A DNA stretch of 64,000 nt, taken from positions 1,487,949 to 1,551,948 of the forward strand of contig NZ_JARKMX010000008.1 in the NCBI RefSeq assembly GCF_029360705.1, given 5' to 3'. The translations under genes were made by a program, and so were the position numbers. This stretch comes from Paraflavitalea pollutisoli. GTDB lineage: Bacteria > Bacteroidota > Bacteroidia > Chitinophagales > Chitinophagaceae. Below the pieces are notes generated by a model, which was given only the letters and a program-made list of their open reading frames with translations, was not told the origin of the DNA and searched no databases. Positions 15,451-29,923 of this stretch are shown here, piece after piece; position 1 is the stretch's first letter, and every line of letters starts with the position of its first letter.

Positions 15451-17088
15451 ATGAGAAAATACACGACAGCGATCCTGCTGGCCGCCCTGACCGCATTGAC
15501 GGCACAGGCACAACAGGATTACTCCCCCTACCAGCAACAAACCAGCCGGCTACAGGCACTCACCAAACAGTATCCGCAGCTGGCCAGCATCAAATCGATC
15601 GCCCGCACCAACGGCAACAAAGACATCTGGATGCTCACCATCGGCAGCGGCAATAACACCAGCAAACCAGCCATTGCCATCGTAGGTGGCGTTGAAGGCC
15701 AACATTTGCTGGGGGCCGAACTTGCCATCGGTTTTGCTGAAGACCTGCTCAAAGGCAGCAGCTCCGACAGCATCAAAGCCCTGCTCAACAAAACAACTTT
15801 CTACGTATTTCCCAATATGAGTCCCGACGCCAGCGAACAGTATTTCGCGGCCCTGAAATACGAACGCTCTGGCAACGCCACCACCACCGACGATGACCGC
15901 GATGGCAAAACCGACGAAGACGGCTATGACGACCTCGATGGCAACGGCAAGATCACCTGGCTACGCGTTAAATCTCCCCTGGGTATTTATAAACTGCACC
16001 CCGACGATTCACGCGTACTCATCAAAGCCGACGCCGCCAAAGGCGAAAAAGGCGAATACCTGCTGTATGCTGAAGGCATCGACAACGACAAAGACAAACT
16101 GTACAATGAAGATGGCCCGGGCGGTATCTCGTTCAACAGGAACTTCACCTACAAACATCCCTCCTTCACCCCCGGCTCCGGTGAATTTGCCGTATCCGAA
16201 AAAGAAAACAGGGCACTGGTCGATCAGTTGTTTGACCTGTTCAATGTATACGCTGTATTCAGCTTCAGCACCGACAACAACCTGTCCTCACCGATAGCCT
16301 ATAACCCCGCAGCAGCCAACCAGCGCATCGTAGCCGGCTACCTGGAGCCCGATGCCAAAGCCAATGCCCTGGTATCAGAACTATACAACAAGGTAACAGG
16401 CATGAAAGAAGCACCCAAATCGACACCGGCCGGCGGAGATTTCGGCTCCTGGGGTTACTACCACTATGCCCGCTACAGTTTCAGCACACCCGGTTGGTTT
16501 GTACCCAAAGCCAAACCCGACACGGCTAAAAAAGAAAAGGCATTGTCTGTCGACGATCCCACCGCTAACTACCTGCGCTGGGCAGCACAACAAGGCATCA
16601 CCAATACCTTTACGCCCTGGAAAGCGATACAGCACCCAGACTTCGCCGGTCAAACAGCAGAAGTAGGCGGCATCGATCCCTTCGTATTGATCAATCCTCC
16701 GTATAAACTGGTACCCGATATCGTGAAAAAACACACGAGCTTCATCGTACAGGTAGCAGCCTACCAACCCGAGCTGGACCTGGTCAACGTGAAAACGGAA
16801 AAGCTGGGCAACGGTCTCACCCGCATCAGCCTCGAAGTAGCCAACAAAGGCGTTTTCGCTTCTCACACCAAACTGGGCGAAAGAAGTTATTGGATCAAAC
16901 GCATACAGGTGAAGGTGAATACCGCGAGCACTCAAACGGTCATCAGCGGTCGCAAGAACCAATTGCTGAATTCCCTCGACGGCCTCAGTGCACAGCCCCT
17001 CACCTGGCTGATCAAAGGCAGCGGCAAAGTCACCATCGAAGCCGGCAGCCCGACCACCGGCACTGCTAAAACCGACATCAATCTTTAG
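15451..17088 (+). CDS. M14 carboxypeptidase-like protein with degenerate zinc site
   Basis: A secreted 545-residue protein (signal peptide MRKYTTAILLAALTALTAQAQ) clearly paralogous to the next gene. It shares the M14 fold landmarks, the Asp-rich insert (DDDRDGKTDEDGYDDLDGNGKI, about 147-168) and the NRNF motif at 229-232. However, the zinc-site motif reads EGQH (Glu82, His85) where active members have HxxE, the third ligand His is Ser273 (SFSTDN), and the substrate-binding Arg after NPD is replaced by Ser (SPDASEQ). I infer that it does not bind catalytic zinc as a normal carboxypeptidase. It may act as a binding partner of its neighbour, 23 bp downstream and likely co-transcribed. Confidence 0.85.
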   Translation: MRKYTTAILLAALTALTAQAQQDYSPYQQQTSRLQALTKQYPQLASIKSIARTNGNKDIWMLTIGSGNNTSKPAIAIVGGVEGQHLLGAELAIGFAEDLLKGSSSDSIKALLNKTTFYVFPNMSPDASEQYFAALKYERSGNATTTDDDRDGKTDEDGYDDLDGNGKITWLRVKSPLGIYKLHPDDSRVLIKADAAKGEKGEYLLYAEGIDNDKDKLYNEDGPGGISFNRNFTYKHPSFTPGSGEFAVSEKENRALVDQLFDLFNVYAVFSFSTDNNLSSPIAYNPAAANQRIVAGYLEPDAKANALVSELYNKVTGMKEAPKSTPAGGDFGSWGYYHYARYSFSTPGWFVPKAKPDTAKKEKALSVDDPTANYLRWAAQQGITNTFTPWKAIQHPDFAGQTAEVGGIDPFVLINPPYKLVPDIVKKHTSFIVQVAAYQPELDLVNVKTEKLGNGLTRISLEVANKGVFASHTKLGERSYWIKRIQVKVNTASTQTVISGRKNQLLNSLDGLSAQPLTWLIKGSGKVTIEAGSPTTGTAKTDINL

Positions 17089-17111
17089 TACGCTACACAA
17101 AACAGACATTC

Positions 17112-18860
17112 ATGAAACGCAATATATCCCGAGTACTCCTCAGCTGCGGCCTCGCTATCGGCAGCCTCTCTCTGCAGGCCCAGCAACCCAACCAGGTATT
17201 CAAAGGCGCCGGCAGCCCCGTACGCCCCAAAGTGCCCATGAGCTGGAACCGCTACAACGACCATGCAGGCATCACCGATATCGTCAAGAAGATCGCAGCC
17301 GCGCATCCCGAACTCTGTAAACTGGAATCCATCGGCAAATCCTTTCAGGGCCGCGACCTGTGGTGCCTCACCATCAGCGATTTCAAAAAAGGAGGTGATG
17401 TTAGCCGCAAACCCGCTATGTACATCGATGGCAATATCCACTCCAATGAAGTACAGGGCAGTGAATTCGCCTTGTATACAGCCTGGTACCTGACAGAATC
17501 CTTTGCCGATACCAAATACATCCAGGAGCTGCTGGCCGATAAAACCTTCTACATCGTGCCCACCATCAATCCCGATGCGCGTGACAACTTCTTCCATGAA
17601 GCCAACACCGCCAGCTCACCCCGCTCCGGCCTCATTCCCGTCGACAACGACCGCGACGGACAGGTAGACGAAGACGGCTATGACGACCTCGACAAAGATG
17701 GTCACATCGTGATGATGCGCCGCAAGAATCCCAATGGCCGTTGGAAACAGGACACCAAAGATCCCCGCAAAATGGTGATGGTAGGTCCCGAAGAAAAAGG
17801 GGAATATGAACTGCTGGGCCAGGAAGGCATCGACAATGATGGCGATGGTCTCGTGAATGAAGATGGCTACACCTTCGAGTATGACCCCAACCGCGACTGG
17901 GGATGGGGATGGCAGCCAAACTATATTCAGAATGGTGCCTACAAATATCCCTTCTCCCTGCCAGAGAACCGCGCCGTGATGGACTTCGTGATGAAGCATC
18001 CCAACATTGCTGCCGCACAATCGTACCACAACTCGGGCGGTATGATCCTGCGTGGACCCGGTGGACAGGAAGACGTAGGCACTTACAATGCAAACGACGT
18101 ACGCATCTACGATATACTGGGTAAAAAAGGCGAAGAGCTGTTGCCAGGCTACCGCTACCTCGTTGTATACAAAGACCTGTATTCAGCCTACGGTGGCGAA
18201 CTCGACTGGTTCTATGGCGGTCGGGGCGTATATACCTTCTCCAACGAACTGTGGACCTCTTACCTGATGTTCAACAAAGGCAACGATGACGACGACAACG
18301 GCGTGGATCCCTCCTACCAGTTCGATCGCTACCTCCTCTTCAAAGATGCCTTTGTAGAATGGCACGAATACGACCACCCGCAATATGGCAAGATCGAGAT
18401 CGGTGGTTTCAAAAAGAACTTCGGCCGTATGCACCCCGGTTTCCTGCTCGAAGCCGACGCACACCGCAACATGTCGTTCAGCATCTTCCATTGCTACCAG
18501 ACTCCTAAGCTCTCCATCGATTCCATTGCCGAGAAAGACCTCGGCGACGGCTTGAAAGAGATCACGGCCGTGGTATACAACGAACGTATCATACCGACGC
18601 ATGCCAGCCAGGACCTGAAGTTCAAGATCGAACGGCCCGATTACATCACCCTGACAGGCGCTAAAGTGGTAGCCAGCATGATGGTCGACAACCGCGATCT
18701 TGGCATCACGACCGAGCAGCAAACAGAACCCGCCACCATTGTGGTACCCAATATTCCCGGGCAGGGCAGCGTGACCGTACGTTGGATCGTGCAAGGCAAT
18801 AGCAAATACACTATCACCGTAGATAGCCGTAAGGGCGGATTGGTGATCAGGGGTAAATAG
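17112..18860 (+). CDS. M14-family zinc carboxypeptidase
   Basis: A secreted 582-residue metallocarboxypeptidase-like protein (signal peptide to about LQAQ24). The zinc motif is intact: GNIHSNE (His110, Glu113) and SYHNSGG (His306), with NPDAR (Arg157) for the substrate carboxylate and a conserved EIGG/FLLEADAH region late in the domain for the catalytic Glu. Between them lie two Asp-rich EF-hand-like inserts (DNDRDGQVDEDGYDDLDKDG and DNDGDGLVNEDGY) that probably bind calcium. A C-terminal beta domain of about 110 residues follows. It likely trims peptides or amidated substrates in the periplasm or outside the cell. The specificity is unknown. Confidence 0.9.
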   Translation: MKRNISRVLLSCGLAIGSLSLQAQQPNQVFKGAGSPVRPKVPMSWNRYNDHAGITDIVKKIAAAHPELCKLESIGKSFQGRDLWCLTISDFKKGGDVSRKPAMYIDGNIHSNEVQGSEFALYTAWYLTESFADTKYIQELLADKTFYIVPTINPDARDNFFHEANTASSPRSGLIPVDNDRDGQVDEDGYDDLDKDGHIVMMRRKNPNGRWKQDTKDPRKMVMVGPEEKGEYELLGQEGIDNDGDGLVNEDGYTFEYDPNRDWGWGWQPNYIQNGAYKYPFSLPENRAVMDFVMKHPNIAAAQSYHNSGGMILRGPGGQEDVGTYNANDVRIYDILGKKGEELLPGYRYLVVYKDLYSAYGGELDWFYGGRGVYTFSNELWTSYLMFNKGNDDDDNGVDPSYQFDRYLLFKDAFVEWHEYDHPQYGKIEIGGFKKNFGRMHPGFLLEADAHRNMSFSIFHCYQTPKLSIDSIAEKDLGDGLKEITAVVYNERIIPTHASQDLKFKIERPDYITLTGAKVVASMMVDNRDLGITTEQQTEPATIVVPNIPGQGSVTVRWIVQGNSKYTITVDSRKGGLVIRGK

Positions 18861-20298: not shown

Positions 20299-23200
20299 TT
20301 ATAAAAATCCCTCCTGCCGCAGCGGCAATACGATCACAAAAGTGGTACCCAGCCCCTCTTTGCTGCGTGCCGTAATAATCCCTTTGTGTTTCTCGACGAT
20401 CTTACGGGTGATGGACAAGCCAATACCAGTACCCTCATATTGCTCCTGCGTATGCAAACGCTGAAAAAGCGTAAAGATCTTATCCAGGAATCGTTCATTG
20501 AACCCTATTCCATTATCGCGCACTTCGATGCGGCACCAGGACCCATTATCATCTTCCGGCGCCTCAAAGGAACGTTCGGCAATACGCTGTGCATGAATTT
20601 GCACTTCCGGTGGTACGCCCTCCCGCGAGAACTTCAAGGCATTGCTGATCAGGTTTTGAAACACCTGCCTGATTTGCCCGGGCATGCCATCCACCTGGTA
20701 CAAATGTCCCACACGCACCACAGCTTGCTTATCGGCGATCACCACCTCGAGGTCCGACAGGATCTCGCGGATGGTATGATTGAGATCGATGGGCTCAAAC
20801 TTACCGTTTTGCGACAACTTCGAATAGTTGAGCAGGTCTTCGATCAGGCGCATCATCCGCTGTGATGATTTGATGATCCGGTTTACCAGGTCAGTAGCTT
20901 TCGATTCCGTATCGTGCAGGTAATTGTCCTTGATCATATTGCTAAAGATGAATATCTTCCGCGTGGGCTCCTTCAGGTCATGGCTAGCCACAAAAGCATA
21001 CTGTTGCAACTCGGTATTGCTCTTCTCCAATTCATGGTTGGCGCGTTGCAACTCCTCGGTCCTTTCCTTCACCCGCAACTCCAGCACCTCGGTGGCCACC
21101 TTCCGTTCGTGCACCTCCATGATGTTGCCCACCCACAAGCTCAGGTCCTTCCCTTCGTTCATCATTGGCCTGGCCCGCAATTGCTGCCAGCGATATTGAC
21201 CGTCATACCGGCGCATCAGCAATTCGATAGAAAACTCTTTCTTATCCTCCAGTGCGTTGTGCCAGGCTTGTTGGTAAGCATCTATATAGTCCGGATGGAT
21301 ACATACTTCCAATCCCTTATCCAACACATCTTCGGCAGAAATACCGGTATACTCCGGAAACTGCAGGTTGGCAAACTCCATCACCCCGTCCGGGTTCGCC
21401 GTCCACACGATCATCGGGATCGAATCTGCCAGGAACTCCTTCTCTTCCAGGTTTACCAGCGCATTCTTCTCAGCTTCCCGCAGACTGGTGATATCCATCA
21501 TGCTGCCCAGCATCCGGTAAGGAGTATGGTATTCGTCCTGCAACAGGTTGCCGCGGTCGAGAATATAGGCATAGGTACCGTTTCCTTTCAGGAAGCGGTA
21601 CTCTGTCGACCACTTGCTTTCTTTTTTATTGATGATCCGGTTGATGAGTTCATTGACCCGCGCACGGTCATCGGGATGCAGCTTTTGGATCCAGAAATTA
21701 CGTTGGGGTGGCACTTCTGCTTTCTTGTAGTCGAACAACTCATAAAACGTATCGCTGTACCACACAGAATTGTTGGTCAGGTTCCAGTCCCAGATCGCGT
21801 CATTGGTCGCCTGCGAGATCAGGCGGAAACGCTCCTCACTGCCCGATAGCTCGCGGGTACGATCCATCACCTTTTCCTCCAGCTCGCGGTTCAGTTGCTT
21901 CAGGGTATCCTTGGCGATCACCAGCTCACTATAGCTCTTCCGTAGGCGCTGCTCGGCATCTTTCTTTTCTGTAATATCGGAATAGGTAATGATGAGGCCA
22001 TCCATCATCTTCACGGCGATCATTTCATAGATCACCGGCGAATCACCGGTAGTGATCACACACTCGTCGTGGTACACTTTGTTTTCTTCCACCACCTTCA
22101 CCAGTTTCGGGAAAAAACCATTGCTGCATAGGTGTTGGAAATCATATTTCAACGAGAGCCCTACAGCCGACTCGCCGCTAAGCCCAAGTAGCTTATCTGC
22201 GGCCTGGTTAGCCGTAATGACATGAAAATCTGCGATGCCACTCGACGCACTCCGTTGTGCTTTGAAAGCAATGATCGCATTAAGCGTGGAATTGAAAATA
22301 CCCGTAATGATATTATCCAGGTTCTTGATCATGGAAATATCGATGAACGAGATCACCGCGCCATCCGTTTTCTTATCAGAGCGGATATAGGGAAACACCC
22401 GCATCAGGGCACTCGTGTGGTTGTATAGCTTGACTTCCCTTTCTACCAGCTTCTTTGACTTCAGTACCTGTTTAATGTCGGCCGTCAGCGTACTATGCTC
22501 GATATTATTGGAAATATGATCGATGGGGCGCCCTACATCAGAATCGATCAGATTGATGAGTTTGACAGCTGCGGGATTGAACTTGCGGATGCGCATGTCG
22601 GCATCGACAAATACCTGTCCGATATCGGTACTGCCAAAATAGTTATTAAGGTCATCATTTAGCTCGATCAGCTCTTTGATCTTCAGCTGGTGCTCGGTGT
22701 TGAGCGTATGTAATTCTTCGTTGAGTGATTGCAACTCTTCGTTCGAACTTTGCAGTTCTTCGTTGGCACTCAGCAGTTCCTCATTGGAGCTTTGCAATTC
22801 CTCATTGGCAGTCTCCAGGCCCTCTACCGCAATCTGCAGATTGAGCCGGCTTTCCTGTAACTCATCCTCCAGCTCCATGATCAATGACTGGCTATCGGCC
22901 GGCAATTGCCCCCTGATCACTTCCGCATCTTCGCCGACGGTATCGGCCGTTTCCCACAATACCACCAATGTACTCAGACTTTTCTCCGGAAGGTAAGGAT
23001 TGACAATACCGTTCACCAAACAATGATCGCCCTCCCGCTTAACCCGGATCGCACGAAGATGTACTTTTTTCTTCTCCTTCCAGGCCTTCCGAATGGCCGT
23101 ATTGACCGCCACCGACAATTCGGGCAACAGCATCTTCAGCAGGTTGAAGTTAAGCCGGTGCTCGGGCAACGACAGGTATCGGGTGAAATCGCCTATCGCA

Positions 23201-24867
23201 TCTTTCACTTCGTAACGGTTATCGATATACAAAGCAGCATACCGTTGCTCTTCAGCCATCAAATCCTTAAAAGCTTCCAACAATACATATTCATCCTGCT
23301 TCTTTTGACTACGATAGATAGGGTATTCCACCCTACCCTGGGAAGGACGGTAACTTTTGGCAGGCTGGTAAGAGGGTTCAATATAACTCCTTCGTTTCAG
23401 GTTGATCTTCCGGAAAATCTTCCACTTGCCTTCTGCCTCTACATAGTTTTCCTTGAGTACGGAAAGATGTTCACTGGAACCCAGGAACAAATAACCACCT
23501 ACCCGCAGGGCGAAATCAAGCGTATCCAATACCTTTTGCTGCAGGCTGCTATCCATATAGATCAGCAGGTTGCGACAACTCACCAAATCGTTGTGAATGA
23601 ACGGCGGATCTTTCAGCACATTGTGCCGGGCAAACACCACCATCTTACGTACACGCGGTAACACCACATACTTCTTCCCCTCCCGCACGAAATATTCATC
23701 GAGGATATCCTGATCGATATCCTTTTCAATCGACAAAGGATACGTTCCTTTGGCCGCATATTCGATCGCCGCCTCGTCGAGGTCGGTCGCAAAGATCTTG
23801 ATGTCTAATTGGAGGTCCTGCTGGCGCACGTACCGATCAAACAGGATCGCCAGTGAGTAAGCTTCCTCACCAGTACTACAGGCATTGACCCATACCTTGA
23901 GCAGCTCACCAGGCTGCTTCGTCTTACCCAAAGCAGGCAACACCTGGTTCTTAATGACCTCATAAGCATTTTTATCGCGGAAGAAACGGGTAACCCCAAT
24001 CAGAAAACTCTTGAACAACGTATTCGATTCTTCCTGATGCTGATGCAGGTAGTGAATGTATTCGTCGATCGACTTCAACGACAGGTGACTGATCCGTTTC
24101 TCTACACGCCGTAATATAGTAGCGGGCTTGTAAGCCTGAAAGTCGTTGCCCGTATGCTGCTTCACCAGCAACGTAATCGCCGCCAACTGCTGTTCCTGAC
24201 TGGCAGTGGGAACAATGTCCGGCTCTTCCTCATCCTCCACGGGCGTAAAATGCCTGGTCGTATACTTCACGATCTCCTGCGGCATGGCAGCCGGAGACAA
24301 CACATGATCGACATTACCACCATGGATGGCGCTATTGGGCATTCCGTCAAACCGGGCGGTATCCGGTGCCTGCACCAGTACAAAACCGCCGGCCTGTTTG
24401 ATCGCCTCAATACCCTTGGTACCATCCGAACCCGTACCTGACAGGATCACGGCAATCGCATGATTGCCTTTATCCCGCGCCAGCGAATACAGGAAGGAGT
24501 CCACCGCCGTGTTGGGTAGCTTATCCAGGGCTTTCTGCACCAGTTGCACCTTACCCTGGCTGATGGTCATTACCTTGTTGTTGGGGATCACATAAACGTT
24601 ACCACTTTGCAATACCACATTGTGCTCAGCCTCCAGCACATTCATGCTGGTATGCTTCGACACCAGCTCCACGAGCAGGCTCTTATAATCGGGTGACAGG
24701 TGCTGGATGAGAACAAACGCATAACTGCCCCCTTCGGGCATATTATCAAAGAATTCATGGATCGCTTCCAGCCCGCCGGCAGAGGCACCGACTGCAATCA
24801 CATAATCCGGTTTATCCAATATTTCCGTCCCATTATCAGGGCGTTGTATGGTTGGCTGTTTTTTCAT
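20299..24867 (-). CDS. CheB/CheR fusion with PAS domains and histidine kinase
   Basis: A 1522-residue cytoplasmic signalling protein. In order: a CheB methylesterase domain (about 20-205) with the complete triad Ser29 (GASAGG), His56 (QHLSPDY), Asp148 (SGTGSDG); a CheR methyltransferase domain (about 225-490; ACSTGEEAYSLAI and FATDLDEAAIEYA bind SAM); a Glu/Asn/Leu coiled coil of repeated SSNEELQS-type heptads (about 690-750); several PAS domains (about 755-1280); and a HisKA/HATPase_c module with SHDLKEPTRK, NLISNALKFS, DNGIGF and GTGIGLSI. No receiver domain is present, so methylesterase activity is not gated in the classical manner. It follows the phytochrome gene by 8 bp and probably receives its signal. 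Confidence 0.95.
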   Translation of the reverse strand: MKKQPTIQRPDNGTEILDKPDYVIAVGASAGGLEAIHEFFDNMPEGGSYAFVLIQHLSPDYKSLLVELVSKHTSMNVLEAEHNVVLQSGNVYVIPNNKVMTISQGKVQLVQKALDKLPNTAVDSFLYSLARDKGNHAIAVILSGTGSDGTKGIEAIKQAGGFVLVQAPDTARFDGMPNSAIHGGNVDHVLSPAAMPQEIVKYTTRHFTPVEDEEEPDIVPTASQEQQLAAITLLVKQHTGNDFQAYKPATILRRVEKRISHLSLKSIDEYIHYLHQHQEESNTLFKSFLIGVTRFFRDKNAYEVIKNQVLPALGKTKQPGELLKVWVNACSTGEEAYSLAILFDRYVRQQDLQLDIKIFATDLDEAAIEYAAKGTYPLSIEKDIDQDILDEYFVREGKKYVVLPRVRKMVVFARHNVLKDPPFIHNDLVSCRNLLIYMDSSLQQKVLDTLDFALRVGGYLFLGSSEHLSVLKENYVEAEGKWKIFRKINLKRRSYIEPSYQPAKSYRPSQGRVEYPIYRSQKKQDEYVLLEAFKDLMAEEQRYAALYIDNRYEVKDAIGDFTRYLSLPEHRLNFNLLKMLLPELSVAVNTAIRKAWKEKKKVHLRAIRVKREGDHCLVNGIVNPYLPEKSLSTLVVLWETADTVGEDAEVIRGQLPADSQSLIMELEDELQESRLNLQIAVEGLETANEELQSSNEELLSANEELQSSNEELQSLNEELHTLNTEHQLKIKELIELNDDLNNYFGSTDIGQVFVDADMRIRKFNPAAVKLINLIDSDVGRPIDHISNNIEHSTLTADIKQVLKSKKLVEREVKLYNHTSALMRVFPYIRSDKKTDGAVISFIDISMIKNLDNIITGIFNSTLNAIIAFKAQRSASSGIADFHVITANQAADKLLGLSGESAVGLSLKYDFQHLCSNGFFPKLVKVVEENKVYHDECVITTGDSPVIYEMIAVKMMDGLIITYSDITEKKDAEQRLRKSYSELVIAKDTLKQLNRELEEKVMDRTRELSGSEERFRLISQATNDAIWDWNLTNNSVWYSDTFYELFDYKKAEVPPQRNFWIQKLHPDDRARVNELINRIINKKESKWSTEYRFLKGNGTYAYILDRGNLLQDEYHTPYRMLGSMMDITSLREAEKNALVNLEEKEFLADSIPMIVWTANPDGVMEFANLQFPEYTGISAEDVLDKGLEVCIHPDYIDAYQQAWHNALEDKKEFSIELLMRRYDGQYRWQQLRARPMMNEGKDLSLWVGNIMEVHERKVATEVLELRVKERTEELQRANHELEKSNTELQQYAFVASHDLKEPTRKIFIFSNMIKDNYLHDTESKATDLVNRIIKSSQRMMRLIEDLLNYSKLSQNGKFEPIDLNHTIREILSDLEVVIADKQAVVRVGHLYQVDGMPGQIRQVFQNLISNALKFSREGVPPEVQIHAQRIAERSFEAPEDDNGSWCRIEVRDNGIGFNERFLDKIFTLFQRLHTQEQYEGTGIGLSITRKIVEKHKGIITARSKEGLGTTFVIVLPLRQEGFL

Positions 24868-24875
24868 TGACCAGT

Positions 24876-26402
24876 TTAAAAAGAATGCTTCCTGAGCTTA
24901 TATTCCAATAAAAAATTCCTGAACGATTCCGCCACCTCGAGCTCATACGACTTCCATGCCACAGCCGTACGCTTCACCGTTTGCTGCCAGCTGGCAAAAG
25001 AACTGCGCGGATGATAGTGGATATTGTCCTTATCGAACGTGAGAGCCGTCGATGGATCTCCACCCCAATCGATGGATTGCAATACCTCGGGCCTGAACGC
25101 AATAATATATTCACGCTTTTCCGGATTGAGCGGCAACGAAAGGACACCACTGGCCACACTGGCATAGCCAGCCGCCTCATCATACACCGAAGCCAGCGAA
25201 TCATGTTGATACAGCTGCGCAAAATTGTTGCTATAAAGCCATAATACCAACTCCTTGATATCATTTTTTGATGGCGTTTTCCCAATGGTATCGATACGCT
25301 TTTCCGACAGGATCACGGCACCTTCGGCACCCAGCACATTGAGCACCGTTACAGGATACGTGGTCAATGCCTCCACCAGGTCATCTGCCTGGTACACTTG
25401 CTCAACCAGTTTGGCATGCACCTCCTGCAAACGCGTGAGTGCAGCAAATCGTTCCTTGTTGTGGAGACTGGTAATGCGCGCAGAAAGAATATTCGACAGA
25501 AACTCCAACACGGCGCAGGTCTCGAACGACAACTGCCGGGGTGTACGGTGATGACAGCTGAACAATCCCCACAGGAGATCATCCTTTATAATGCGGATCG
25601 ACATCGACGCCATGATCTTCATATTACGCATATACTCCACATGCACCCCGGCCACCATACGCAGGTCACAATCCGACAGGTCAACAAAGTTTTGCGACAC
25701 GGGATTGATCACCGGGTACAAACCAACAGGTTCCCCTTCCCGGTCGGGGATCATGCGATACGGATTGCGCAGGTACAGGTTGCGTACTTGCTGCGGGATA
25801 TCGGATGCCGGAAAAGTGAGCCCCAAATAAGCATCCATCCCCTCTTCCAGCACTTCAGCGATCACCGTACCATTCCAATCGGCGTCAAAACGGTAGATCA
25901 ATACTTTATCGAAACCCGAAACCCGCTTGATCTCTTCTGCAGCAATGGCAGCTACCCCGGCAATATCACCAGCCTGATCCATGGCTGCCATCGCATGCCG
26001 CAGATCGAGGTAAATGTCGGTGAAAGCGGCCGACCGATCGGAGGCGGCAGACAATTCAAGCTCGATCAGCAGGGCATCTTCCTTCCGGTGAATGATGGCC
26101 AAAAAATCCCGGGCCACCCCACCCCACTCCAGGGTCAGCGTATAGGGTAGCTTAGCAGTCGAAGCATCCTCAAACTTTTTTTTCACATCTGCCAGTTGAA
26201 CCGGCGAGAAATAATCGGTCAACGGTGTATCCACCAATTCAGCGGGCGATTTTTGTAGAAGCTTTTCCACATTCTCACTCACCTGTTGAATCAAAAAGTC
26301 GGTAAACCCGACGATCAGCAACACACCATGCGCCTGGATAAGGTTGATCTTGTGCAGCGGCAGGCTGCCGCAAAAAGCAGAATCATAATTCTTTTTACTC
26401 AT
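24876..26402 (-). CDS. bphP: Bacteriophytochrome photosensor (PAS-GAF-PHY) lacking a kinase
   Basis: A 508-residue red/far-red photosensory core. The biliverdin-attachment cysteine is Cys11 (FCGSLPLHKINLIQAHG), the PAS domain spans about 15-120, GAF about 135-300 with PASDIP (Asp201), His254 (AGVHVEYMRNM) and the FSCHH pair (His284), and PHY about 310-500 with the tongue motif PRSSF. All main chromophore-contact residues are present. Usual bacteriophytochromes continue into a histidine kinase; this one ends after about 30 further helical residues. The start is at the ATG overlapping the heme oxygenase stop (ATGA), not the frame's upstream extension. The output partner is probably the downstream CheBR-kinase. 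Confidence 0.95.
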   Translation of the reverse strand: MSKKNYDSAFCGSLPLHKINLIQAHGVLLIVGFTDFLIQQVSENVEKLLQKSPAELVDTPLTDYFSPVQLADVKKKFEDASTAKLPYTLTLEWGGVARDFLAIIHRKEDALLIELELSAASDRSAAFTDIYLDLRHAMAAMDQAGDIAGVAAIAAEEIKRVSGFDKVLIYRFDADWNGTVIAEVLEEGMDAYLGLTFPASDIPQQVRNLYLRNPYRMIPDREGEPVGLYPVINPVSQNFVDLSDCDLRMVAGVHVEYMRNMKIMASMSIRIIKDDLLWGLFSCHHRTPRQLSFETCAVLEFLSNILSARITSLHNKERFAALTRLQEVHAKLVEQVYQADDLVEALTTYPVTVLNVLGAEGAVILSEKRIDTIGKTPSKNDIKELVLWLYSNNFAQLYQHDSLASVYDEAAGYASVASGVLSLPLNPEKREYIIAFRPEVLQSIDWGGDPSTALTFDKDNIHYHPRSSFASWQQTVKRTAVAWKSYELEVAESFRNFLLEYKLRKHSF

Positions 26403-27001
26403 TTCGTATGGGTTATGGAATGGCCCTGCAGCCATTCATAAAAGCTTTCAAATGTTTGGTTTGCACCCAATATAACCGCCTGTTGCTTTGCTTCGGAATC
26501 GGCAAACGACAACAGGTATTGCCGGAATTGCGCCCACTTGTTCATCGTCGCGTCCGCATAGCCCGTGAAGAATTGCAGCGCGCCGGTGGGCAGACCAGGC
26601 AGCCGGTCACGCACCATTTTCGCGATGATGGAACCACCCAGGGTCGACCCTTCAAAAACATACAAAGCGCCCAAAGCCTCGCCCACGCTGGAATAGACTG
26701 GCGTGTGCCTACACAGCGGCACCTCCTTCAGCAAAGGGTTGAGCACCTGCATATCCTGCCACAATAGCTCCGATTGACGGCGTTCTTCCCAATCGGTCAC
26801 GATCTCGCGCACCAGTGGCAACACCTGTTGCTGTACCGGCTGATAGAAACCATAAAAAAGGGAAAGCAATGACAGATATTGTTCCTGCGTATGCATCGAT
26901 TTGATGGCATATACCATCCATTTTTCCAGCTGCTGGTGGGCAGCTAAAGTGGTTGTTTTTAGCAGGTCCGTAATCAATACGGATGGGTGGGTCGTCGTCA
27001 A
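26399..27001 (-). CDS. bphO: Heme oxygenase, biliverdin-producing
   Basis: A 200-residue cytoplasmic heme oxygenase that opens heme to biliverdin, CO and iron. The proximal heme ligand is His22 (TLAAHQQLE), the distal helix motif is GALYVFEGSTLGGSII with its Gly-rich bend. Length and helical pattern match BphO proteins. It is the first gene of a three-gene operon and overlaps the phytochrome by four bases, supplying its chromophore. The start is a TTG: no in-frame ATG exists upstream before a stop, and the next ATG (residue 29) would remove the heme ligand. It is divergent from ada. Confidence 0.93.
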   Translation of the reverse strand: MTTTHPSVLITDLLKTTTLAAHQQLEKWMVYAIKSMHTQEQYLSLLSLFYGFYQPVQQQVLPLVREIVTDWEERRQSELLWQDMQVLNPLLKEVPLCRHTPVYSSVGEALGALYVFEGSTLGGSIIAKMVRDRLPGLPTGALQFFTGYADATMNKWAQFRQYLLSFADSEAKQQAVILGANQTFESFYEWLQGHSITHTK

Positions 27002-27114: not shown

Positions 27115-27122
27115 TATTTTTG
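27115..27122 (+). promoter_or_regulatory. -7 element TATTTTTG of the ada gene
   Basis: Exact TAnnTTTG match 18 bases before the first ATG of ada, with a GTTG about 20 bases upstream as the -33 half. No obvious Ada-box was identified. Confidence 0.5.
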
Positions 27123-27140
27123 TGGCCTATTATTCGAGCT

Positions 27141-28187
27141 ATGATGAACACATTGACACCGGATCTGATGTACGCCGCGCTGGTTAAAAAAGACAGCCAG
27201 TTTGAGGGCGTCTTTTTCGCAGCCGTGAAGACCACGGGCATATTTTGCCGGCCTACTTGTACGGCACGCAAACCCAAATTCGAGAATGTCGAGTTTTATG
27301 CGACCAGCAAAGAAGCCCTGCAGCATGGTTACCGCGCCTGCAAGGTTTGTTCACCACTCGAACAACAACACGAAGCGCCTGATTACATCAAACAATTGCT
27401 GGCCCTGATACAGGAAGCACCTGAACAGAAGATCACCGATTACCGGCTGCGGGAAATGGGTATAGAACCCTCCCAGGTGCGCCGCTGGTTCAAGAAACAT
27501 CACCAGCTCACTTTTCAGGCTTTTCAACGGTTGCAACGCATTAACCATGCCTTTAGCATGATCCGCTATGGCGAAAAAGTAACGAGTGCCGCGTTTGAAA
27601 ACGGATACGACTCCCTCAGTGGCTTCAATTATTCCTTTAAAAAAAATACCGGCTTTGTACCAGCCTCCAGCAAATCGGGCCAGGTGATTACCATCACCCG
27701 CATTACCACACCGCTGGGCCCCATGCTGGCCGGCACCACCGATCGGGGCATCTGCCTGCTGGAATTTACCGACCGCAAAATGCTGGAAACGGAACTGAAG
27801 CAACTCAACAAACTATTGAAAGCGCCGCTGCTGCCAGGCTCCCATGTCCACTTCGACCAATTGAACCGCGAAATACAGGAGTATTTCGAAGGCAAACGAA
27901 AGACCTTCACCGTGCCCCTCGATGCACCCGGCACCGATTTTCAACAGGCCGTCTGGAAGGAACTGACCACCATCCCCTTTGGCACTACGCGCTCCTACAA
28001 AGAACAGGCAGTACACCTGCACCAACCCTCGGCCATACGCGCTGTAGCCAATGCCAATGGACTCAACCGCATCTCCATTCTCATCCCCTCCCATCGCGTT
28101 ATCGGCTCCGACGGACAACTGACAGGTTATGGCGGAGGCATCTGGCGCAAACAATGGTTGCTCGACCACGAACGGAAAAACGCCTGA
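27141..28187 (+). CDS. ada: Ada-like methyl-phosphotriester repair regulator with Ser in the alkyl-acceptor site
   Basis: A 348-residue three-part Ada protein: an N-terminal zinc domain with all four cysteines (Cys36, Cys40, Cys67, Cys70, matching E. coli 38, 42, 69, 72), an AraC-type helix-turn-helix (about 85-180), and a C-terminal O6-alkylguanine transferase-like domain (about 185-345). The canonical PCHRV active site reads IPSHRVIGSDG: Ser317 occupies the position of E. coli Cys321. The rest of the site, including the downstream TGYGGGIWRK and the WKELTTIPFGTTRSY helix, is intact. Phosphotriester sensing through Cys36 is thus expected, but O6-methylguanine transfer is not. It starts at one of two adjacent ATG codons after a promoter element. 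Confidence 0.9.
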   Translation: MMNTLTPDLMYAALVKKDSQFEGVFFAAVKTTGIFCRPTCTARKPKFENVEFYATSKEALQHGYRACKVCSPLEQQHEAPDYIKQLLALIQEAPEQKITDYRLREMGIEPSQVRRWFKKHHQLTFQAFQRLQRINHAFSMIRYGEKVTSAAFENGYDSLSGFNYSFKKNTGFVPASSKSGQVITITRITTPLGPMLAGTTDRGICLLEFTDRKMLETELKQLNKLLKAPLLPGSHVHFDQLNREIQEYFEGKRKTFTVPLDAPGTDFQQAVWKELTTIPFGTTRSYKEQAVHLHQPSAIRAVANANGLNRISILIPSHRVIGSDGQLTGYGGGIWRKQWLLDHERKNA

Positions 28188-28357: not shown

Positions 28358-28513
28358 GTTCATCGACCACCGGCCATGCATACTACGGCCGGTAACCTGC
28401 TGTGGTCTTCCCCGTTCATAGACACCCCGACCGCAACACCGGTAGCAACCTGCTATATACACGCAGGACCGCACCTTACCATTGTATTCACAAACCATTC
28501 AAATAAACAGGCT

Positions 28514-29923
28514 ATGTCAACTTACCGTACAGAGCATGACTTTCTCGGCGAAAAACAGTTGTCCAATGATTGTTATTATGGCGTACAAACCCTGCGGGCC
28601 AAAGAGAACTTCGACATTACTGGTATCCCCATCAGCAGCGAACCACTTTTTATCAAAGGATTTGGCTACATCAAAAAAGCAGCAGCGCTGACCAACAAAG
28701 AGCTGGGCGTACTCGATCCCAAAATAGCCGACGCCATCGTCTATGCCTGCGACCGGCTCATTGCCGGTGAATACGTCGACCAGTTTATCAGCGACCTAAT
28801 ACAGGGAGGTGCGGGCACTTCCACCAATATGAATGCCAATGAAGTGATCGCCAATGTGGGGCTCGAATACCTGGGCCACGCCAAAGGCGAATACGATCAC
28901 CTGCATCCCAACAACCACGTAAACCTGTCGCAAAGCACCAACGACGCCTACCCGTCTGCGTTTCGGCTGGCCCTGTACCTGAAAATGGATGCCTTCGCCG
29001 ACGCACTCGAGCAATTACAAAAAGCCTTTCATGACAAGGGAAAAGAGTTTGCCGATGTTTTAAAGATGGGACGTACCCAGCTACAGGATGCGGTGCCCAT
29101 GACACTGGGCCAGGAATTCAATGCCTTTGCCACCACCATCGGAGAAGATGTACAAAAACTACGTGAGGCCGAACAACTCATCACAGAAGTCAATATGGGC
29201 GCCACCGCCATCGGCACGGGCGTCAATGCCCCCGAAGGCTATGCAGAATTGTGTGTAAAGCACCTCGGCGCCGTCAGCGGCATTCCCGTCACCCTCGCCG
29301 AAGACCTCATCGAAGCCACCTATGATACCGGCGCGTTTATACAACTCAGTGGCGTATTAAAGAGATGTGCCATCAAACTCAGCAAAGTGTGCAATGACCT
29401 GCGGCTACTGAGCAGTGGCCCTCGTTGCGGGCTCGGAGAGATCAACCTGCCGGCCATGCAGCCTGGGTCCTCCATCATGCCCGGCAAAGTGAATCCCGTG
29501 ATCCCCGAAGTGGTGAACCAAACCTGCTTCTACGTCATCGGCGCCGACCTCACCGTCACCATGGCAGCCGAAGCCGGCCAACTACAGCTCAACGTGATGG
29601 AGCCCGTCATCAGCTTTGCACTCTTCACTTCGCTCGAGTATATTACCAAGGCCTGCAACACCTTACGCGAAAAATGTGTGGTGGGCATTACCGCCAATGC
29701 CGAGTGGACCAAGCAACAGGTGATGCAAAGCATCGGCATTGTGACCCAGCTCAACCCCATCATCGGCTACGAAGAATCGGCCGCCATTGCGAAAGAAGCC
29801 CTGAAGACCGGAAAATCTGTACACGATATCGCAGTCAGGGAAAAGAAACTGATCACCCAGGAAAAATGGGACGAGATCTATTCGGTGGAGAACCTCATCA
29901 ATCCCAAATTCATTACCCAATGA
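28514..29923 (+). CDS. aspA: Aspartate ammonia-lyase (aspartase)
   Basis: Aspartase interconverts L-aspartate and fumarate plus ammonia in the cytoplasm. The 469-residue protein carries the fumarase/aspartase superfamily signature GSSIMPGKVNPVIPE (catalytic Ser loop), SQSTNDAYPSA, and GRTQLQDAVPMTLGQE. MSTYRTEHDFLGEKQL is a typical aspartase opening, and the start at 28514 is chosen for it; the frame is open further upstream but without a family match. The stop overlaps the next ATG (ATGA), so the transporter is translationally coupled. Confidence 0.96.
   Translation: MSTYRTEHDFLGEKQLSNDCYYGVQTLRAKENFDITGIPISSEPLFIKGFGYIKKAAALTNKELGVLDPKIADAIVYACDRLIAGEYVDQFISDLIQGGAGTSTNMNANEVIANVGLEYLGHAKGEYDHLHPNNHVNLSQSTNDAYPSAFRLALYLKMDAFADALEQLQKAFHDKGKEFADVLKMGRTQLQDAVPMTLGQEFNAFATTIGEDVQKLREAEQLITEVNMGATAIGTGVNAPEGYAELCVKHLGAVSGIPVTLAEDLIEATYDTGAFIQLSGVLKRCAIKLSKVCNDLRLLSSGPRCGLGEINLPAMQPGSSIMPGKVNPVIPEVVNQTCFYVIGADLTVTMAAEAGQLQLNVMEPVISFALFTSLEYITKACNTLREKCVVGITANAEWTKQQVMQSIGIVTQLNPIIGYEESAAIAKEALKTGKSVHDIAVREKKLITQEKWDEIYSVENLINPKFITQ

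Follow-up and report, generated by a model that had tools for sequence, protein, structure and literature searches.

Three genes for a putative split red-light sensor

The window, a stretch of 64,000 nucleotides from the genome of Paraflavitalea pollutisoli, contains three genes on the minus strand that appear to encode a red-light sensor divided over two proteins. The first encodes a heme oxygenase (200 aa; 26399..27001; PF01126, E 1.5e-15), the expected maker of a biliverdin chromophore. It overlaps by 4 bp with a gene for a kinase-less PAS-GAF-PHY photosensor, abbreviated here as PSM (508 aa; 24876..26402; Pfam PAS_2, GAF, and PHY), in which Cys11 is the expected bilin ligand. After a gap of 8 bp follows a gene for a CheB-CheR-PAS-histidine kinase, or CheBR-HK (1522 aa; 20299..24867), with Pfam matches to CheB (E 1e-52), CheR (1.8e-47), several PAS domains, HisKA (2.8e-7), and HATPase_c (3.9e-25). 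The place and content of this set and the 8-bp gap, as given in a first-pass annotation of the sequence, were borne out. In some soil and water bacteria, such an output-less red-light sensor nearly always adjoins a CheBR-HK gene, which suggests a light-controlled, self-tuning kinase. Genomes and loci are labelled G and L below, with G000 being the genome of the window.

The PSM has the PAS_2-GAF-PHY tridomain typical of the photosensory part of bacteriophytochromes, and its start at 26402 agrees with the N-termini of its relatives, in preference to an in-frame ATG at 26435. The PHY match (E 5.8e-46) extends up to residue 505, and the reading frame ends 3 residues past it. As no HisKA or HATPase domains were matched in the PSM by Pfam, it lacks the kinase in cis that follows PHY in a canonical bacteriophytochrome histidine kinase (BphP); the match to the BphP model NF041576 broke off at profile position 512 of 622 and scored 300.6 bits, against a cut-off of 1040. 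Cys11, Asp201, His254, His284, and the PRxSF tongue (residues 465-469) are all present, as had been claimed, and C11, D201, H254, H284, P465, R466, S468, and F469 are invariant in an alignment of 19 kinase-less sequences. We take these to have the usual roles of the bilin-ligand Cys, the PASDIP Asp, the two His residues, and the tongue.

The closest solved relative by sequence is FiDCB (PDB 9jry), to which residues 7-505 of the PSM could be aligned (E 7e-101). FiDCB is of the dual-Cys type, of which a second GAF Cys beside the conserved His is presumably the defining feature. Where FiDCB reads SPCHIEYL, the window PSM reads AGVHVEYM, with V253 invariant in the 19 sequences. Since the GAF Cys of FiDCB is a Val here, the PSM is, judged by its sequence, a plain biliverdin-type phytochrome. 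An extra Cys245 (window positions 25668-25670), 3 residues before the conserved Arg248, occurs in 16 of the 19 kinase-less sequences; the others have Ser (two) or Ala (one), and FiDCB has Ser. No PHY protein other than the PSM was found in the genome of 8.76 Mb.

Recurrence of the pair in two phyla

A survey of 294 genomes of the family yielded 46 with a PHY protein, at 49 places whose surroundings were all inspected. A CheBR-HK gene adjoined 19 of the 21 kinase-less PSM genes and none of the 28 other PHY genes (Fisher p 1.1e-11, a statistic that ignores relatedness). One of the exceptions, L061, has its PSM beside a PASB-PASC-PASD-HK protein without CheB-CheR; the other, L035, is discussed below. 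Named genomes, taken as the best 80 of 587 relatives, gave 25 of 26 kinase-less frames with a CheBR-HK neighbour, versus 0 of 56 others; the 26th frame is truncated where its contig stops. The coupled genomes among these 80 belonged to Chitinophaga, Flavisolibacter, Taibaiella, Pedobacter, Mucilaginibacter, Paradesertivirga, Pontibacter, Chryseosolibacter, and others. The surveys overlap in part (L129 and L076 have identical sequences, as do L119 and L066). A sample of the phylum (395 genomes, 40 with a match) contained one kinase-less frame outside the family, in a genome of another order (G546), with a CheBR-HK neighbour. The search of genomes for the three-gene order, proposed in the first-pass annotation, thus found the pair to recur, which excludes that it is unique to this strain.

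Removal of four duplicates or near-duplicates from a total of 45 left 41 coupled loci. In 22 of these, a heme oxygenase gene immediately precedes the PSM gene, and 19 have a gene for a single-domain response regulator immediately downstream (Pfam confirmed all six that were tested). The response regulator is therefore part of the unit in many relatives; at the window locus, none was detected adjoining the CheBR-HK gene.

The kinase-less PSMs formed a fully supported clade in both PSM trees (one of 96 of 134 rows, the second of 55 rows), and by these trees the kinase-less form is an old lineage, spread across several families. Within this clade were three joined forms: L034 (901 aa) and L073 (896 aa), which are PSM-PAS-kinase proteins, and L067 (752 aa), a PSM-kinase protein. 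Forcing these out of the kinase-less clade was rejected (AU p 0.0124, with labels assigned by architecture and the test chosen after the first tree). In L034 and L073, the junction after PHY corresponds to residue 1128 of the window CheBR-HK, so that PHY is followed by the PASD-kinase part, as a deletion between two adjoining genes would give. Kinase similarity alone was discarded as an argument for coupling, as 47 matches to this kinase type exist in the own genome and the 41% identity of the joined kinases therefore carries little weight; trees were used instead. In a kinase tree of 96 rows, in which other kinases were represented by 30 best-match loci only, the kinases of L034, L073, L067, and L061 stood among the partner kinases, with moderate, unstarred support (SH-aLRT 89). 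These natural variants keep a photosensor and a PAS-kinase without CheB-CheR, and therefore point to the kinase as the main output. The PSM and CheBR trees also have subgroups in common: the Chitinophagaceae genome G174 falls among Mucilaginibacter in both, and its PSM and CheBR-HK look as though they were transferred as a pair.

Losses were found as well. Among five genomes sampled from the genus, including the own genome, two have the pair, two (G162 and G214) have no PHY protein, and one (G085) is an orphan. G085 has no PHY protein and encodes a CheBR-HK with 78% identity in CheB-CheR, the kinase of which lacks PASC and PASD. Just upstream of its start lies a scrap of a PSM 3' end (25 bp at 92%, blastn E 4e-5), which tblastn recovers over 27 aa with an E-value of 1.2, weak alone but in place. 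In L139 (Chitinophaga sedimenti), the photosensor and kinase genes both seem to be in pieces, by decay or sequencing error, and the genes of L131 are likewise split.

The pair was also found in Bdellovibrionia. In a metagenome-assembled genome of the Bdellovibrionaceae (L169), the PSM gene overlaps a coil-PAS10-PAS-kinase-receiver gene that is cut by the contig end, and is convergent with a second, kinase-bearing phytochrome gene. Of 143 genomes of the class, 13 contained PHY (24 places), and neighbours were inspected at ten fetched places and at L169. Five of the seven fetched kinase-less frames (L290-L294) adjoin a full CheB-CheR-PAS-kinase-receiver protein of about 1600 aa, in reverse gene order; in L295, one gene lies between the PSM and a CheB-CheR-kinase gene, and L296 begins at a contig end. 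None of the three fetched kinase-bearing frames had a CheBR-HK neighbour. A single clade of the Bdellovibrionia CheBR proteins and the Bacteroidota partners, nested orphans included, was rejected (AU p 0.012), and a clade of the Bacteroidota partners with their nested orphans was not (p 0.18). A value of 1.2e-5 from an earlier clade test was left unused, as it was forced by uncoupled proteins nested in the partner clade; repeating the test with these gave the p of 0.012. Together with the reversed order, the rejection of a single clade therefore indicates that the pairing draws on two CheBR lineages and two gene orders in two phyla.

The proposal that a split photosensor is coupled to a separate kinase was thus supported by the adjacency in the family (19/21 versus 0/28), the recurrence in reverse order in Bdellovibrionia, and the joined forms inside the PSM clade. 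Coupling in trans is well supported by this comparison of genes, and light would most likely reach the kinase in this way.

Candidate contact site and a candidate methylation substrate

The CheBR-HK protein has the order CheB, CheR, PASa, heptad coil, PAS10, PASB, PASC, PASD, DHp, and ATPase, with five PAS-like segments; CheB, CheR_N, CheR, PAS_10, HisKA, and HATPase_c are combined in one chain with intact active sites. The first-pass description of a 1522-residue protein with a CheB triad, CheR, PAS domains, and a histidine kinase proved correct. CheB (residues 24-199; 24271..24798; PF01339, 1e-52) has its triad of Ser29, His56, and Asp148 kept in 45/45 coupled proteins. The same is true for Arg297, Asp362, Arg432, Asn433, and Tyr437 of CheR (residues 227-481; 23425..24189; PF03705 and PF01739), while Glu334, the first Glu of the STGEE motif, is found in 40 of the 45 and is Gln in five.

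Domain statistics were based on 39 coupled proteins, i.e., the 45 minus four duplicates or near-duplicates (including the truncated L117) and two in pieces; identities given are pairwise means. CheB and CheR show 63% and 53% identity, respectively. Between CheR and the coil lies PASa (residues 521-655; 22903..23307; 39/39, 39%), which is PAS-like by judgement, with no Pfam match. The coil (residues 656-738; 22654..22902; 80%), which contains ANEELQSSNEELLSANEELQSSNEELQSLNEELHT, is a candidate substrate for CheR/CheB. It is followed by PAS10 (residues 739-850; 22318..22653; PF13596, 1.8e-23; 57%), PASB (residues 869-990; 21898..22263; 39/39, 36%), and PASC (residues 1019-1130; 21478..21813; PF08447; 39/39, 51%). 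PASD, the PAS domain nearest the kinase (residues 1141-1256; 21100..21447; 40%), is present in only 19/39, and is the PAS domain between PHY and kinase in the joined L034 and L073. The histidine kinase itself (20308..21081; PF00512 and PF02518) consists of DHp (residues 1263-1355; 40%, found in 35 of 39) and a catalytic domain (residues 1386-1520; 45%), which was matched in all 39 full-length coupled proteins. The kinase type varies by subgroup (Mucilaginibacter, Pedobacter, and Taibaiella; Pontibacter; and the rest) with the part from CheB to PASC constant, a pattern by which the kinase domain was swapped at least once or twice. In L113 (Pedobacter sp. SYSU D00535), the partner kinase is 1874 aa long and carries extra PAS domains that separate PASC from the kinase part.

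A PAS domain or the coiled coil of the kinase had been suggested as the site at which the photosensor binds. The PAS part of this suggestion can be narrowed to PASC, and the coiled coil is retained as a rival reading. PASC is the best candidate for the contact because it is present in all 39 coupled proteins, has a conservation close to that of CheR, shows the highest partial correlation with PSM distances, lies in the stable part from CheB to PASC, and is absent both from G085, which lost its PSM, and from all eight of the nearest uncoupled proteins (class II, L262-L269), in which PASB leads straight to the kinase. With the other domains held, the partial r was 0.36 for PASC, 0.21 for PASB, 0.20 for CheB, 0.15 for the catalytic domain, 0.13 for CheR, 0.11 for PAS10, and 0.03 for PASa; the permutation p for PASC was 0.0005. 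Distance correlation as such was dropped as proof of contact, as all domains correlate. Common ancestry explains part of the pattern, and the PASC contact, like the adaptation by self-methylation described below, is a hypothesis with supporting patterns.

The strongest competitor to PASC, possible if somewhat less probable, is a contact made by a PHY helix entering the coiled coil of the kinase, or through PAS10 or the coil in mixed dimers. In phytochrome kinases with output in cis, the PHY helix runs on into the DHp coil, and the junction in L034 and L073 lies right at the PHY end. However, the kinase-less PSMs end within about a dozen residues of PHY, and the kinase type was swapped while the part from CheB to PASC stayed.

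The coil has the consensus [TAS]NEELQSSNEELLSANEELQSSNEELQSLNEELHT, with little variation, and we refer to it as the EELQSS coil. The pattern EExx[AST][AST], which is close to the chemoreceptor consensus, occurs in the 39 coupled proteins at 40 per 1000 residues in the coil versus 0.6 outside it. The window coil has three, a number reached in 8 of 2000 shuffles. Strong matches to coil and PAS10 (E 1e-10 or better, five genomes) lay in frames with CheR in ten out of ten cases; G174 has two further, weaker matches outside these ten. One of the ten, L312:1630-5082 (G000 C12), is a coil-PAS-kinase (1150 aa, EE-rich coil) that has CheR only, with no match to CheB. The own genome contained no match to methyl-accepting chemotaxis proteins (MCPs; PF00015), with CheA and CheW not searched for, and one of 24 related genomes, G288, contained two such genes side by side (C1:304978-307119). 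Glutamate methylation had been suggested as a second output. Given that no MCP was found in the genome and that the near-invariant EE-rich coil goes with CheR, it is better read as intramolecular adaptation, in which CheB and CheR might have the EELQSS coil of their own chain as substrate. The own genome also contains a locus (L198; G000 C15:890385-902915) with separate CheR and CheB genes beside those for a 496-aa PAS-kinase and a kinase of 1203 aa whose coil is rich in Glu; of all kinases in this genome, the 496-aa protein is closest to the window kinase (54% identity).

A proposed two-protein light sensor and its setting

Taken together, we consider it probable that PSM and CheBR-HK form a two-protein red/far-red sensor, in which the PSM docks on CheBR-HK via PASC and sets its kinase activity, with coil methylation providing adaptation. 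The heme oxygenase would supply biliverdin, which the PSM is predicted to bind at Cys11 and by which it would switch between Pr and Pfr. Without an output of its own, the PSM would dock on the adjoining CheBR-HK, most likely via PASC, and thereby set the activity of the kinase. CheBR-HK would then phosphorylate a separate single-domain response regulator, encoded next door in many relatives and presumably elsewhere in the own genome. CheR and CheB would probably methylate and demethylate glutamates of their own coil, adjusting the sensitivity to steady light, the part played by chemoreceptor methylation in chemotaxis.

Several observations weigh against this proposal. Covariation with the PSM is not confined to PASC but was also seen for PASB and CheB (permutation p 0.0015 each), and the permutations ignore relatedness. 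The partners are largely one clade, so that the presence of PASC may be a matter of inheritance; the loss of PASC alongside the PSM is a single event; a PASC-type match occurs in three of 21 uncoupled proteins, one of them weak at 29 bits; and no PASC-specific match was found in the Bdellovibrionia partners. A single origin of the PSM in both phyla was not rejected (AU p 0.61), and the idea of two independent origins of the kinase-less PSM was dropped for this reason; only the CheBR partner lineage differs. The window coil has just three heptads of the form EExx[AST][AST], and the coil is equally conserved in uncoupled CheBR-HKs (85% in class II); self-methylation, if real, would therefore not be peculiar to light sensing, but a general trait put to use for light at this locus. 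Lastly, L035 has a PSM with no kinase beside it, and the orphans G179 and G016 have partner-clade kinases with PASC and no detected photosensor.

These last three cases also fit a different explanation, by which the genes are merely cotranscribed and the light signal of the photosensor goes freely to other, unlinked kinases, or to no kinase at all. We consider this unlikely, given that none of the 28 other PHY genes of the family, the kinase-bearing phytochromes, has a CheBR-HK neighbour, that the pair recurs in reverse order in Bdellovibrionia, that the joined forms are nested in the PSM clade, and that subgroups match between the PSM and CheBR trees. Marginally less likely still, the photosensor would mainly control CheB/CheR, with methylation as the output and a kinase that is incidental or senses something else. 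This would fit the conservation of CheB and CheR catalytic residues in 45/45 coupled proteins while the kinase type varies between subgroups. However, L061 pairs its PSM with a PAS-HK without CheB-CheR, the PSMs of L034, L073, and L067 are fused straight to a kinase, all 39 full-length coupled proteins have a kinase, and a response regulator is present at 19 of 41 loci. The state of G085 and the genes in pieces in L139 and L131 might suggest that the photosensor is what is left of a normal phytochrome kinase in decay. This is highly improbable, as the kinase-less forms make up an old clade that spans several families and in which the chromophore residues are invariant.

A bolder form of the proposed two-protein sensor is a stand-alone, MCP-free, adapting light receptor, in which a phytochrome in trans gates a kinase with its own methyltransferase, methylesterase, and methyl-accepting coil, assembled with two CheBR-kinase lineages in two phyla. 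This we regard as doubtful; if true, one protein would do the joint work of a chemoreceptor, CheA, CheR, and CheB.

In agreement with the first-pass annotation, which knew of no system of this composition, no description of a kinase-less phytochrome paired with a CheB-CheR-kinase was found in the open-access literature; a search there for CheB-CheR fusions via the coil motif gave chance word matches only, and in one for phytochromes by organism, bacteriophytochromes were named in none of the papers listed. BphP histidine kinases (NF041576) share the PAS-GAF-PHY architecture, the N-terminal Cys, the Asp, both His residues, PRxSF, and the adjoining heme oxygenase, but at the window locus the kinase is in another protein, with CheB and CheR, and none is in cis. 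CheBR-HKs without a phytochrome (L197 in the own genome and class II) share CheB, CheR, the coil, PAS10, and the kinase, but have no photosensor neighbour, and those of class II lack PASC, with PASB as the single PAS domain ahead of the kinase.

Of the systems known to work, those that come closest are sensory rhodopsin:Htr complexes, in which the transducer is methylated, and short LOV proteins, with their presumed action in trans. In haloarchaeal sensory rhodopsin:Htr complexes with CheR/CheB, the photoreceptor acts in trans and methylation of the transducer adjusts light signalling (PMC6798134, PMC5812497). The same is proposed for the window pair, but there a membrane rhodopsin works with an MCP and separate CheA, CheR, and CheB, and here a soluble phytochrome with a single CheB-CheR-coil-kinase chain. 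In RpBphP1-PpsR2 of Rhodopseudomonas palustris, a bacteriophytochrome acts on a separate partner via a light-induced complex (PMC6899989); the partner is a gene repressor, however, and RpBphP1 has a C-terminal PAS and two-helix output domain. Short LOV proteins are presented in one of these sources as photosensors without a covalent effector, presumed to signal in trans (PMC6798134). Unlike the PSM, with which they share the missing effector, they use flavin and respond to blue light. We know of no fixed CheBR-HK neighbour of short LOV proteins.

Phytochrome output has usually been studied where PHY runs straight into a kinase. From a naturally split pair that also has joined relatives in nature, one would learn which contacts transmit the light signal, and such a pair would provide a ready-made modular red-light switch. 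Little is known about the adaptation of non-phototrophic bacteria to steady light; a 2017 review names transducer methylation in two organisms as rare, partly understood examples of light adaptation (PMC5812497). With CheR and CheB in the kinase chain and no MCP found in the genome, adaptation to steady light is directly testable here, and the pair suggests a possible role for the widespread CheB-CheR-PAS-kinase proteins.

Downstream of the window CheBR-HK gene lies a small, convergent gene, the counterpart of which in the sister genome G259 encodes a cupin, and a scan found no terminator downstream of CheBR-HK. A comparison with plasmids matched 130 records, all with less than 60% identity (35% for the best among the matches listed), and gave no close copy. 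On the other side, the plus strand carries divergent genes for an Ada-type regulator/O6-methylguanine methyltransferase (27120-28187) and a fumarase/aspartase-family lyase (28505-29923). Two adjoining M14 zinc carboxypeptidase genes are found at 15451-18860, also on the plus strand.

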